Shown: positions 14,105-17,766 of the stretch, piece after piece
How the letters are laid out: each line of letters opens with the position of its first letter
How positions within the stretch are numbered: position 1 is the stretch's first letter
Assembly (NCBI GenBank): GCA_001899255.1
Contig: MKVX01000007.1
Span: 124,001-188,000, forward strand
Direction of reading: 5' to 3'
DNA: 64,000 bases
Source: Rhizobiales bacterium 62-47
GTDB lineage: Bacteria; Pseudomonadota; Alphaproteobacteria; Rhizobiales; Xanthobacteraceae
The notes under the pieces: model-generated
The model's input: only the letters and a program-made list of their open reading frames with translations
Database searches by the model: none
Told to the model about the DNA's origin: nothing
Translations under genes and position numbers: made by a program

Positions 14105-14214
14105 GCGCGCGGAACGCCGGGTGCCCGATGCACCCATGGCCCCGTGTGCAAAAGTGAAAAGCACACGAGTGTATTCGCCACGGTCACACCGGAATCATCC
14201 GGCGTTCCGCGCGC
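14105..14214. repeat. Dispersed intergenic element with 16-bp inverted ends
   Basis: Perfect 16-bp inverted repeats (14105-14120 and 14199-14214, arm GCGCGCGGAACGCCGG) enclose about 78 bases that include CCCCGTGTGCAAAAGTG. From memory, closely similar sequences recur between genes in Bradyrhizobium-type genomes and are often mis-annotated as short ORFs. I cannot confirm copy number here. Confidence 0.5.
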
Positions 14215-14669
14215 GATGGTGTTAACGGCTTGCTGCGCAAAAACCCCCGACCGCCGAGCCTGAGGTGACGGTCGCTCCAGGGGACTTGCGCCCCACAGCC
14301 ACCCCCGTTGAGGGGAGACGGCCGCGTGGCTGCCCCATGGCGCAAGGCGATGCGCCGGGATATCGCGCGCTGGGACCGTTCGCGTCGCGGCGTGGTCGTC
14401 AGTCCCGTCACACTCGCGAGGTTACCCCCGCGCGATGCGAGACATCGAACGCCGCACGCGCCCACCGCCATCCCGCCCCGCAGACCGTGACGATCGCGAG
14501 CCGCCCCTCTCAGTGAGGCGGGATTGATAGGAATATATACCCAAAACTAAAAATAGCAATAGCTTATTCAGACGAGCATTGGATCTGCGGTCCTACGTTC
14601 AGTTGCAGACTCGCACTTGCAGAAATAGAGTTAAGCAACGTAAAAATTGGACCTAGATGTCAAAACCCT
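14215..14669. other. Intergenic transition into the AT-rich segment
   Basis: Up to about 14520 the sequence is GC-rich with short palindromic stretches and no convincing gene. From about 14525 it turns AT-rich (GGAATATATACCCAAAACTA and onward), which I take as the left side of the acquired segment that carries the TIR-like gene. Its promoter should lie in 14540-14665. No integrase or tRNA end is visible. Confidence 0.5.
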
Positions 14670-16643
14670 ATGGAAGAAATCCGCGCATTTGTAGGTCATA
14701 GCTTTACAGAAGATGACGCCGACGTCGTTCGCTCTTTCTTGAGCTATTTTACCGAAGTCTCGAACATTCAAGCGACGTTCTCTTGGGAACATGCTGAAGA
14801 GGCTGAGCCAAGTCAGCTACGAGACAAAATCTTGGCCTTATTAAAGGATAAAAATACCTTCATTGGAATCTGCACCAAGAAAGAGCAGGTCGTTTCAGCT
14901 ACAAGTTTGAAACCTCTCTGGTGGAATGCAACACGCCTAAGTGTCCAAACTTCTAAAATTGAATGGAAGACGTCAGACTGGATCATCCAAGAAATTGGAT
15001 TGGCTGCAGGGCGCGGCATGTCCATTATTCTTTTTGTTGAAGAAGGAGTTCGAAAGCCAGGAGGCATCCAAGGAGATATCGAATATATCACCTTTGACCG
15101 ATTGGTTCCCGAAAGGGCGCACGGAAAATTTCTTCAGATGTTGCGGGCCCTTTCACCCACAACATTGACTAAGCAGCTATCACCATCTGTTACAGGCCGA
15201 GATACAAAAACAATAGAGACAGAGGACAGAAGCGCTCTGTTAGGGGACGATGAAACAATCTCTGAGCATTGGGATCGGGCGGACTATGAGCTTGCCGCCT
15301 TTCGCGCGATTTCAAAAGGCGACGATAGCAGAATTGACCAAATTAGCGCTAGTTATCTGAAATCCAAAGACTTCAAAGCCTCTTGGGAAATAGCAGACTG
15401 GAATGCGTATCTCCAAAGCGCAAAAATTCTTCTAGGAAAAGGCGGTGATTTGCTCAAGCTCGAACAGATCGCCGACGAGAATCCAAACAACTCTGAAGTA
15501 CTTTTCTATCTCGGGAGTTCATATCAACGATTCTCAGATCTTCCCAAAGCGGCTGACTCGTTCGTTAGAGCGAGTAGTTCTGCAAAATCTCCAGAGTTGA
15601 GAGCAAAGTACCTCTACTTTGCCGCCAAAGCATTCAGAAGCGCTGGCGCATCTGCTGAGGCAAACACGCAGATCGCTCATCTTAGGTTACTTAGTGCCGA
15701 AGTTGCTTCAACAGAACATCGATTGCTAGATGCCCTGTTCGATCTTGCTAAAGATGCCGAAAACAAAGAACTCGAGGTAGCGATCTTGGAACGCAGAATA
15801 CAACTGCGGCCAAACGATACCGAGACGCGATTTTCGTTAGCATACTCGCATAGCGAGCTCGGCAATACGGACATCGCGCTGACCCAATATCTTTTATTGG
15901 ACCCCACAGAGCGAAGTGAGTCCGCCTGGAACAATCTCGGAGTTGCATACGATTCACTGAATATGCCGACGAGGTCGGTTCAATCATATCGCAAATCCGA
16001 AGAGCAAGGTGGCACTATGGCAATGAGCAATTTGGCTCAAAAGTTGATCACCGCTGGATTTCTCGATGAAGCACAAGCGCTCTGCGACAAGGCTCTTGCG
16101 ATAGGAGACTATGACAAGAACATTGGACTGCTTGCTGCCCGACTTAAGGAACTCCCTGATGAAGAGACAACGACACTCCGCGAACTCCGCAAGCAGATGA
16201 AGCCCAAGAGCGAATTCTATCGTGAGATAGGCGAAGCGGTAAGCGCTCCCGAGCCAAATCTGGGTAAGATATGGAAAGGACCCGAGTGCAATCTCTTGCT
16301 AAAAAAGAATACGCACAACAACTCAGTTTATTTTTCAGGTTCATTTAAGCAGCAGCAAAGCCCGCTATCTCTCGCAATAATGGGAAGCTCTATCAGCCCA
16401 ATAGAAAGAACACATAACGTTGAAGTAAACGGAACAATCAACGGTCGATTGATACAAGGATCGCTAAAACGAAGTATTGTTGGCGCTCCTCCTCCAAGCA
16501 TCCTATCGATATCCAATGAGACGAGTACGGTGCTTATGGTTGTTAGCAAAGATCTTCAAACGATCCGCGTCATGGAAAACCCTAATGCGGTAAAGCCATT
16601 GTTCTTTGATCTTACTCAACAAAAAACTGAAGAGCGACTATAG
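14670..16643 (+). CDS. TIR-like domain protein with TPR repeats, candidate defence gene
   Basis: The 657-residue protein has three parts. Residues 1-145 look like a TIR-type fold: a first strand IRAFVGHSF, a central strand FIGICTKK, and DWIIQEIGLAAGRGMSIILF, where Glu108 sits where TIR NADases carry the catalytic glutamate (WxxxE). Residues about 240-500 form TPR-like helical repeats (NSEVLFYLGSSYQRFSDLPK, SAWNNLGVAYDSLNMPTRSV). Residues 530-657 are a beta-rich C-terminal part I cannot name. Codons are much richer in A/T than in all neighbours, indicating transfer. It stands alone, with no partner nuclease or sirtuin beside it. The domain calls are by eye. Confidence 0.75.
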   Translation: MEEIRAFVGHSFTEDDADVVRSFLSYFTEVSNIQATFSWEHAEEAEPSQLRDKILALLKDKNTFIGICTKKEQVVSATSLKPLWWNATRLSVQTSKIEWKTSDWIIQEIGLAAGRGMSIILFVEEGVRKPGGIQGDIEYITFDRLVPERAHGKFLQMLRALSPTTLTKQLSPSVTGRDTKTIETEDRSALLGDDETISEHWDRADYELAAFRAISKGDDSRIDQISASYLKSKDFKASWEIADWNAYLQSAKILLGKGGDLLKLEQIADENPNNSEVLFYLGSSYQRFSDLPKAADSFVRASSSAKSPELRAKYLYFAAKAFRSAGASAEANTQIAHLRLLSAEVASTEHRLLDALFDLAKDAENKELEVAILERRIQLRPNDTETRFSLAYSHSELGNTDIALTQYLLLDPTERSESAWNNLGVAYDSLNMPTRSVQSYRKSEEQGGTMAMSNLAQKLITAGFLDEAQALCDKALAIGDYDKNIGLLAARLKELPDEETTTLRELRKQMKPKSEFYREIGEAVSAPEPNLGKIWKGPECNLLLKKNTHNNSVYFSGSFKQQQSPLSLAIMGSSISPIERTHNVEVNGTINGRLIQGSLKRSIVGAPPPSILSISNETSTVLMVVSKDLQTIRVMENPNAVKPLFFDLTQQKTEERL

Positions 16644-16654
16644 CTCGTTATTAC

Positions 16655-16926
16655 CTGCTGTCCTCTTCACGTGCCTACGCCTGCCGCACCCTCATCGACA
16701 TCCTATGACCTGCACGTCGTGCTGGACGGCAAGCGCTTCTTGTGGCGCAACCCGAACCATGGCGTGACGCTGCTCGACGCCGGGCGCGACTCCGCAATTC
16801 TGTAGCAAACGGAAAGCGGCGAAGGCCGCAGGCTGTGGCGTCATGCGGCCGTTCTGGAAAATCACCGAGCGCAATTGCCCGCGTAGCTACGATCTCAGAA
16901 ACCCACCGCCGGAGCCAACGGACTAG
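16655..16926 (+). pseudogene. Decayed partial copy of the gene at 17149-17766
   Basis: From about 16671 (GTG) the sequence follows the start of the intact downstream gene almost base for base (SYDL, RNPNHGVTL, AGRDSAIL), then has a TGG-to-TAG stop at 16803-16805. After the codons for GEGRRLW about 360 bases are missing; the copy resumes at the equivalent of 17683 (WPFWKI) in another frame and ends at a TAG at 16924. It is a tandem duplicate ruined by a nonsense change, an internal deletion and a frameshift. It begins immediately after the TIR-like gene. Confidence 0.85.
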
Positions 16927-16999
16927 AGTCCGTGGCGATCCACCCGGCTCAATTTCCGAACCATCTCATTCAGCCACACTCGCTTGCCCCCTCCCCAAC

Positions 17000-17076
17000 C
17001 CTCCCCCGCAAGCGGGAGAGGGAGCGCGCCTCGACGCGTCGAGGGGCTGAACGACAGCTGAGGGGCTGAACGACAG
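17000..17076. repeat. Short hairpin and 19-bp tandem repeat
   Basis: A CTCCC-rich hairpin (about 17000-17020, loop around CAAG) of a type common between genes in this group is followed by two copies of GAGGGGCTGAACGACAG (17041-17057 and 17060-17076). The rest of 16927-17148 holds no gene; its last part is the leader of the gene at 17149. Confidence 0.55.
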
Positions 17077-17148
17077 GAGCGCAAAGGCCATTCGGCGCGG
17101 CCCCGTAGCTATCTCGACGCCGCGCCGCAATCCGCTATCCTCCCGCGC

Positions 17149-17766
17149 ATGAACGCGCCCGCGCCTGCCGCATCGTCATCGACATCCTATGACCTGCACT
17201 TTGTGCTGGACGACAAGCGCTTCTTCTGGCGCAACCCGAACCATGGCGTGACGCTGATCGACGCCGGGCGCGACTCCGCAATTCTCTGGCAGACGGAGAG
17301 CGGCGAAGGCCGCCGGCTGTGGACCGACATCGTGGCCGTCAACATGATGTCGGCCACCGATGGCAAGGATGCCGTCAATCATTGCCGCATCGGCTTTCGC
17401 GACGGCCGCGCGCTCACCGTCACCGATGCCGGGCCCTCGGGCCAGGTCGATCACGACCGCACGCCGCGCTATCGCGACTTCATCCGCGCGCTGCATGCGC
17501 GCCTCGTCCATGCGCCGCAAGGCACCATACGTTTCTCAGCCGGGGTTTCGGAAAGCCGCCACCACGCCATGATGGCGATCGGCACGATCGGCGCGCTGTT
17601 CTTCGTCGGCCTGCCGGTGGTGCTGCTGTTCGTGGTGCGCGACTGGCGCGTGCTCGGCCCGCTCGCCGTGGGCGCCGCTTTCATCTGGCCGTTCTGGAAA
17701 ATCATCGAGCGCAATCGCCCGCGCAGCTACGACCCGCGCCACCCGCCGGGCGAACTGATGGATTGA
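17149..17766 (+). CDS. Hypothetical membrane protein, 205 aa
   Basis: A soluble N-terminal part of about 135 residues (YDLHFVLDDKRFFWRNPNHG) is followed by two membrane helices (MMAIGTIGALFFVGLPVVLLFVV and LGPLAVGAAFIWPFW) and a short basic tail. I do not recognise a named family. The gene has the normal GC-rich codon use of the chromosome and is the intact parent of the broken copy just upstream. Confidence 0.7.
   Translation: MNAPAPAASSSTSYDLHFVLDDKRFFWRNPNHGVTLIDAGRDSAILWQTESGEGRRLWTDIVAVNMMSATDGKDAVNHCRIGFRDGRALTVTDAGPSGQVDHDRTPRYRDFIRALHARLVHAPQGTIRFSAGVSESRHHAMMAIGTIGALFFVGLPVVLLFVVRDWRVLGPLAVGAAFIWPFWKIIERNRPRSYDPRHPPGELMD

Follow-up and report, generated by a model that had tools for sequence, protein, structure and literature searches.

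A solitary TIR-TPR gene at a variable chromosomal site in a Rhizobiales bacterium: a candidate one-gene defence system

The gene described here lies at positions 14670-16643 of the window, by which we mean the whole stretch of 64,000 nucleotides that was analysed. It is intact on the forward strand, with an ATG start and no internal stop, and encodes 657 aa. It is preceded by a dispersed repeat and followed by the broken copy of a neighbouring gene. The features of the locus are the following:

14190..14545, + strand: dispersed intergenic repeat, with the cargo gene next to its right end; it has matches in its own genome and in five congeners, including the syntenic site of G002-G005
14670..16643, + strand: gene for a TIR-TPR-beta-domain protein of 657 aa with co-linear full-length relatives, a candidate one-gene defence system
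14670..15164, + strand: divergent TIR domain by remote assignment, residues 1-165
14991..14993, + strand: codon of Glu108, the putative catalytic glutamate
15453..16109, + strand: TPR region, about residues 262-480, from Pfam TPR matches
16182..16640, + strand: C-terminal domain, residues 505-657, with weak calycin-like resemblance (weak lipocalin/avidin-type matches)
16669..16908, + strand: broken, internally deleted duplicate of the gene at 17149-17766, containing stop(s)
17149..17766, + strand: intact 205-aa gene of a family without a name, the right-hand landmark of the variable site, syntenic in 5/7 same-genus genomes

The overall GC of the gene is 0.465, and its GC3 of 0.454 is the lowest among 41 non-overlapping window ORFs of at least 150 aa, a set chosen by length with a median GC3 of 0.768. 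The claim that its codon use is richer in A/T than that of every neighbour was thus borne out. The start of the ORF is plausible, as the start codon of the relatives is found at the same place or at most four codons off, with the reservation that the aligned rows of the relatives were cut at the presumed start and the common first Met is partly a product of that cut. On the right side the gene abuts a broken gene, as had been noted. Positions 16669-16838 match 17153-17322 with 91% identity (170 nt, the start of the duplicate), and positions 16841-16908 match 17681-17748 with 82% identity (68 nt, its end), which marked 16669-16908 as a copy of the gene at 17149-17766 that contains stop(s) and has lost an internal part. 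The intact gene gave no match in a Pfam scan. No partner gene was recognised adjoining the TIR-TPR gene, and both of its flanking genes are present in congeners that lack it. When the window protein itself was scanned, PADLOC-DB 2.0.0 returned no match, and Pfam and NCBIfam named TPR-type families only.

The initial annotation had read the N-terminus as TIR-type and Glu108 as its possible catalytic residue. The Pfam scan of this part of the window copy found nothing above the cut-off, the only match being DUF5645 at E 0.13, below it. A profile was built from 19 N-termini, those of the window copy and of 18 relatives, some of which are short where the gene or the contig is cut. It was compared by hhalign with a TIR_2 alignment of 13 domains from the same class (taken from 20 loci, seven mostly lower-scoring ones being left out), and the match covered 124 columns with a probability of 66 and an E of 5.6e-5, which refers to one comparison. 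A rerun gave a score of 31.6 (E 1.5e-4, probability 51.9), while the best of 60 column shuffles reached 17.0. In the hhalign alignment Glu108 falls on the invariant glutamate of the TIR_2 rows, which we take to be the catalytic residue of TIR domains. The CAP12 family gave less: a two-sequence CAP12 alignment, too shallow for profile comparison, yielded a 24-column match only, and CAP12-PCTIR_TIR was matched weakly (E up to 1) by 7/19 members, the best at 8.2e-4 and the window copy not among them. A PDB sequence search with the TIR profile returned matches at chance level only.

Loss of Glu108 among homologues had been named in advance as a finding that would speak against this reading. The residue, which stands in the context SDWIIQE in the window protein, is invariant in 19/19 N-termini. 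As WKTSDWI was among the search patterns, conservation within that motif is in part a product of the search; the pattern stops three residues before Glu108, and therefore the invariance of Glu108 was not forced in this way.

The fold check of the N-terminus gave a divided answer. The predicted structure has a pLDDT of 86, and TIR structures were indeed found by Foldseek, from rank 20 of the 50 matches listed and with E of about 0.01-0.03 (RPS4/RRS1, TLR15, L6, TLR1 and BtpA), but N-glycosidase, deoxyribosyltransferase and other Rossmann-like folds ranked higher. The only two matches at E <=0.001 were both the CMP N-glycosidase BcmB, and RpiR, WrbA, AzoR, DNPH1 and deoxyribosyltransferase folds preceded the first TIR. 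The deoxyribosyltransferase-type matches presumably belong to the DRHyd/SLOG group related to TIR. DRHyd and SLOG domains have been described as evolutionarily related to TIR (PMC7159879). The TIR_2 profile match beyond the shuffles, the alignment of Glu108 and this kinship led us to assign residues 1-165 to a divergent TIR domain even with the mixed structural comparison; it is a remote assignment, in which we have high but not complete confidence.

The TPR-like repeats of the middle part were confirmed, with TPR_17, TPR_2 and TPR_1 all above the Pfam cut-offs in the window protein. The C-terminus, annotated as beta-rich and unnamed, agreed with that description: its model (pLDDT 89) shows one helix and then mostly strands. 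Searches of this domain against PDB structures and viral models found no match at E <=0.001. The PDB matches were lipocalins (best E 0.05) and an avidin, and those among the viral models were a functionally uncharacterised phage protein (E 7.2e-3), an avidin-family protein and a MoaF-like protein. The domain may be a calycin-like ligand-binding barrel, which we offer as a possibility and not as a result.

The gene is rare. A search with the N-terminus found one full relative in the class sample, where the gene is present in 2/385 genomes, and a search with the C-terminus found a partial relative in a phylum sample; in a phylum sample of 398 genomes the gene is present in two (the source genome is included in both counts). 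The class-sample relative, from Reyranella (the same locus as L025 below), shows 32% identity to the window protein end to end. The alignment of the first two N-termini led to 18 loci in a species-genome collection, confirmed out of 64 pattern-matching stretches. Since 12/18 of these relatives are complete and align co-linearly with the window protein from end to end, in the order TIR, TPR and beta domain (identity 31-41%), the three parts stay together in full-length relatives. Five other matches from a full-protein search of 61 genomes were dropped, being restricted to the TPR stretch at residues 263-501. No TIR-TPR gene was found in the seven same-genus genomes (0/7), and no relatives were found in the plasmid, phage and viral-contig collections.

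The relatives are labelled alpha-, beta- and gammaproteobacteria, Nitrospirae, Desulfobacterales and a Chloroflexi bin; many of them are metagenome bins, which may be misassigned. The contig labelled 'Maribacter' (L016) is only 3 kb long, and its protein is 64% identical to a Chromatiales copy. The GC of the gene was below that of its flanks in 11/11 loci measured (of the 18), the gap being small in L024 with 0.358 vs 0.373, and broken copies are present in the assemblies of L018, L023, L026 and L028. Judged on these sequence features, the rarity, the scattered phyla, the low GC and the broken copies form the pattern of a gene that appears mobile and dispensable. A tRNA-linked integration was considered and rejected, as tRNA genes were found in 4/19 scanned loci (L014, L017, L021 and L024) and at no constant place.

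The neighbourhoods of the homologues, the survey of which had been proposed initially, are not constant. Five of the 18 are type I restriction-modification (R-M) loci, and some others show Fic, CAP12-TIR, resolvase or housekeeping-type genes. All-against-all comparison of the neighbours revealed no constant partner; those that recur are Hsd subunits, Fic, resolvase and a few signalling or housekeeping-type proteins, and no cyclic-nucleotide synthase was found among the scanned neighbours. Near the Nitrospirae copy (L017) is a Fic gene that matches PDC-S04. The neighbourhood of the Bradyrhizobium copy (L026) includes a resolvase and a CAP12-like TIR gene (PDC-S35), and a DUF2971 gene (PDC-S31) is located on a contig that probably continues that of L026. 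A resolvase also lies 2 kb from the gene in L025, and L018, L024 and L028 adjoin genes recognised by eye as housekeeping-type.

In the five R-M loci (L015, L016, L019, L020 and L022) the gene stands directly after hsdS, and in L016 and L020 the two overlap by 4 nt. In L015 and L019 Pfam recognised HsdR, HsdS and a downstream HsdM, in L020 HsdS plus the C-terminal part of HsdR, and in L016 and in L022 HsdS; the contigs of the last two stop no more than about 300 bp from the gene. The operon of Nitrosomonas communis Nm44 has the order hsdR-hsdS-TIR-TPR-hsdM. The HsdR of L022 is 62% identical to that of L019. A Fic gene lies between the TIR-TPR gene and hsdM in L015, and in L020 the following gene is a Schlafen AlbA_2 gene, not hsdM. 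We also observed that the HsdS subunit at L015:6220-7965 carries a GIY-YIG domain between its two halves. No Hsd relatives were found by blastp among the visible neighbours of the other 13/18 loci, several of whose contigs are cut close to the gene. On the protein tree (15 proteins, 14 of them labelled), at least three changes are required to explain the R-M label, which suggested repeated gain or loss of the coupling; the label did not cluster significantly, with 68/500 shuffles as low.

The window copy is truly solitary, without a type I R-M partner. No HsdS match was found in its genome, while the same search was positive in 9/14 control genomes, and the two N6_Mtase matches of the genome are type IIG/ISP restriction enzymes; because of this, a type I R-M trigger is unlikely for the window copy. 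The word 'solitary' in the initial annotation thus held for this copy, which has no adjoining partner, but not for the whole family, with 5/18 relatives in R-M operons. Elsewhere in the same genome, contig C2 carries a pair of large genes for type IIG/ISP restriction-methylation enzymes (L111:4838-11668), followed by two genes that by eye look like an IS21-type pair.

The gene occupies a variable site, window 14537-17149, which runs from the repeat (left end of the site at about 14537) to the landmark gene (congener loci L069, L070, L071 and L072). The landmark gene is present in 5/7 same-genus genomes with one copy listed in each, and these five sites were compared. That of G002 is near-empty, with about 150 bp between the repeat end and the landmark gene. 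The G003 site carries a 598-aa DRT reverse transcriptase of type UG13a (2.8e-198), and the G004 site a 345-aa gene with a weak match to a TIR effector model (3.2e-7) and with Nuc_deoxyrib_tr below the cut-off. An exonuclease (effector model, 3e-34) and a nucleotidyltransferase (PDC-M70A, 1.1e-22) are found at the G005 site, and an SDR gene at that of G001, where the repeat has no match. Counting the window genome, four different defence-type cargos were found at one site in 4/6 genomes, a count made with PADLOC models applied without curated cut-off and with PDC families that are candidates.

The repeat is a few hundred bases long. We rejected the idea that it always borders defence genes, as 13/18 of its off-site copies (L093-L110) have no markedly AT-rich gene downstream. 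Such a gene is present in the other five, L096, L097, L100, L106 and L109. In L096 a SieB gene lies about 1.1 kb beyond the repeat, and L109 has a HEPN match just under the cut-off, while the genes of L097, L100 and L106 are of no recognised kind. The AT-rich solitary genes at the repeat ends of L106 (1618-3741, 707 aa) and L097 (3857-5239, 460 aa) gave no Pfam or PADLOC match and are possible new kinds of defence genes.

Taken together, these data suggest, with a probability of roughly 0.7, that the window gene is a horizontally acquired single-gene anti-phage system of the abortive-infection kind, driven by the TIR domain and sensing through the TPR/C-terminal part. An anti-phage gene of a new type is probable because a rare and probably mobile TIR fusion is joined here with defence-type cargo at the site and with relatives in restriction operons. 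The domain order, the conserved glutamate, the sporadic distribution and the defence-type contexts support at the sequence level the earlier proposal of a candidate one-gene defence system; the defence activity itself is what we infer. Its absence from the congeners (0/7), its occurrence in several phyla and the lower GC of the gene in 11/11 measured loci count for probable horizontal acquisition. The TPR/C-terminal part would hold the TIR domain inactive and would recognise an infection cue. On recognition, the protein may self-associate and its TIR domain may cleave NAD+ or make a signal nucleotide, and the outcome would be growth arrest or death that stops the spread of the phage. In the R-M-embedded relatives the gene could, by analogy with PrrC for EcoprrI, back up or guard type I restriction, and the window copy, without such a partner, would have to sense something else.

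An alternative is that the core job of the family is to watch the type I restriction complex and to fire, as PrrC does, when phage anti-restriction proteins block it; solitary copies would then be orphans, with a different host machine to guard or with a changed trigger. The position directly after hsdS in 5/18 loci, with the overlaps in two and hsdM downstream in two, speaks for such a role, as do the repeated gain or loss of the coupling on the tree and the PrrC precedent (PMC12707154). We nevertheless regard it as unlikely, as the window genome has no HsdS and only type IIG/ISP matches for N6_Mtase, no R-M gene was recognised near 13/18 relatives (several contigs cut), and L020 has AlbA_2 in the place of hsdM. 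Moreover, genes that are embedded in a type I R-M operon can provide defence even without restriction by HsdR, although the TgvAB genes alone gave weaker protection than the whole cluster against several phages (PMC11411939). A more elaborate form of this proposal, which we find similarly doubtful, is a TIR guardian of type I restriction whose TPR/calycin-like C-terminal module would fire the TIR domain on sensing that HsdRMS is disabled, or on sensing a small ligand that infection releases. The module would have entered and left hsd operons on more than one occasion, the solitary gene would be retargeted to another host machine, and within the genus it would belong to a set of interchangeable cargos that occupy a defence site bordered by the repeat.

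Signal nucleotides are among the products that bacterial TIR domains can make, and no effector was recognised adjoining the gene; both would fit a Thoeris-like split system, in which the TIR protein stands alone and makes a signal that switches on an effector encoded at another place in the genome. All full-length relatives in the alignment (12/18) have the TIR domain fused to a large region that looks like a sensor, which argues against it, and the recurring neighbours, inspected by eye, include no such effector, so that we hold it to be improbable. A reading outside defence is a metabolic or inert enzyme of the nucleotide glycosidase/deoxyribosyltransferase type, with a TPR scaffold and spread by chance. 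The best Foldseek match, BcmB, and the ranking of DNPH1 and deoxyribosyltransferases above TIRs agree with it, and so do the neighbourhoods that look housekeeping-type by eye; but the five R-M operon contexts, the defence-type cargo at the syntenic site, the sporadic distribution and the AT-rich composition make it very improbable. The single-gene TIR-driven system is thus the reading that we prefer.

If this reading is right, the gene represents a rare cross-phylum TIR family with a new domain combination, which beyond its TPRs is not named by PADLOC-DB 2.0.0, Pfam or NCBIfam in scans of the window protein. The recurrent physical link of a TIR effector to type I R-M would make PrrC-style guarding directly testable, and the chromosomal cargo site of the genus could serve as a place to look for more defence systems. 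Both TIR effectors and effectors embedded in R-M loci are already known kinds. In our searches of the open-access literature, preprints excluded, neither this TIR-TPR-beta architecture nor a TIR gene within type I R-M operons was found described.

With the bacterial TIR effectors of the TIR_2 and CAP12-PCTIR class, the window protein shares the TIR-superfamily profile similarity and the glutamate at the catalytic position. It differs from them in being too divergent for naming by Pfam, in its fusion to TPRs and an unnamed beta-rich C-terminus, and in that no cyclase or ThsA-type gene was recognised adjoining it. A ThsA-type effector as in Thoeris was not found next to the window copy, whose flanking genes are common to congeners without the TIR-TPR gene, and a cyclic-nucleotide synthase as in CBASS or Pycsar was not found at the locus.

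PrrC, the anticodon nuclease of the EcoprrI type I R-M locus, offers a precedent for an R-M guardian (PMC12707154). A location inside a type I R-M operon, as a single effector-type gene, is shared with PrrC by 5/18 relatives and not by the window copy. The effector is of another class, however, the window copy and 13/18 relatives show no adjacent R-M genes, and guarding by TIR-TPR proteins is putative. TgvAB likewise represents additional anti-phage genes carried within a type I R-M operon (PMC11411939), but it is a GmrSD-like type IV restriction system that needs two genes and is not known to contain TIR or TPR domains. DSR2 is a defence-associated sirtuin and not a TIR protein, and we liken it to the window protein by description rather than by sequence. 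It has been described as one protein that depletes NAD+ upon sensing a phage protein (PMC11087589), a mode of action that resembles the one proposed for the window protein.
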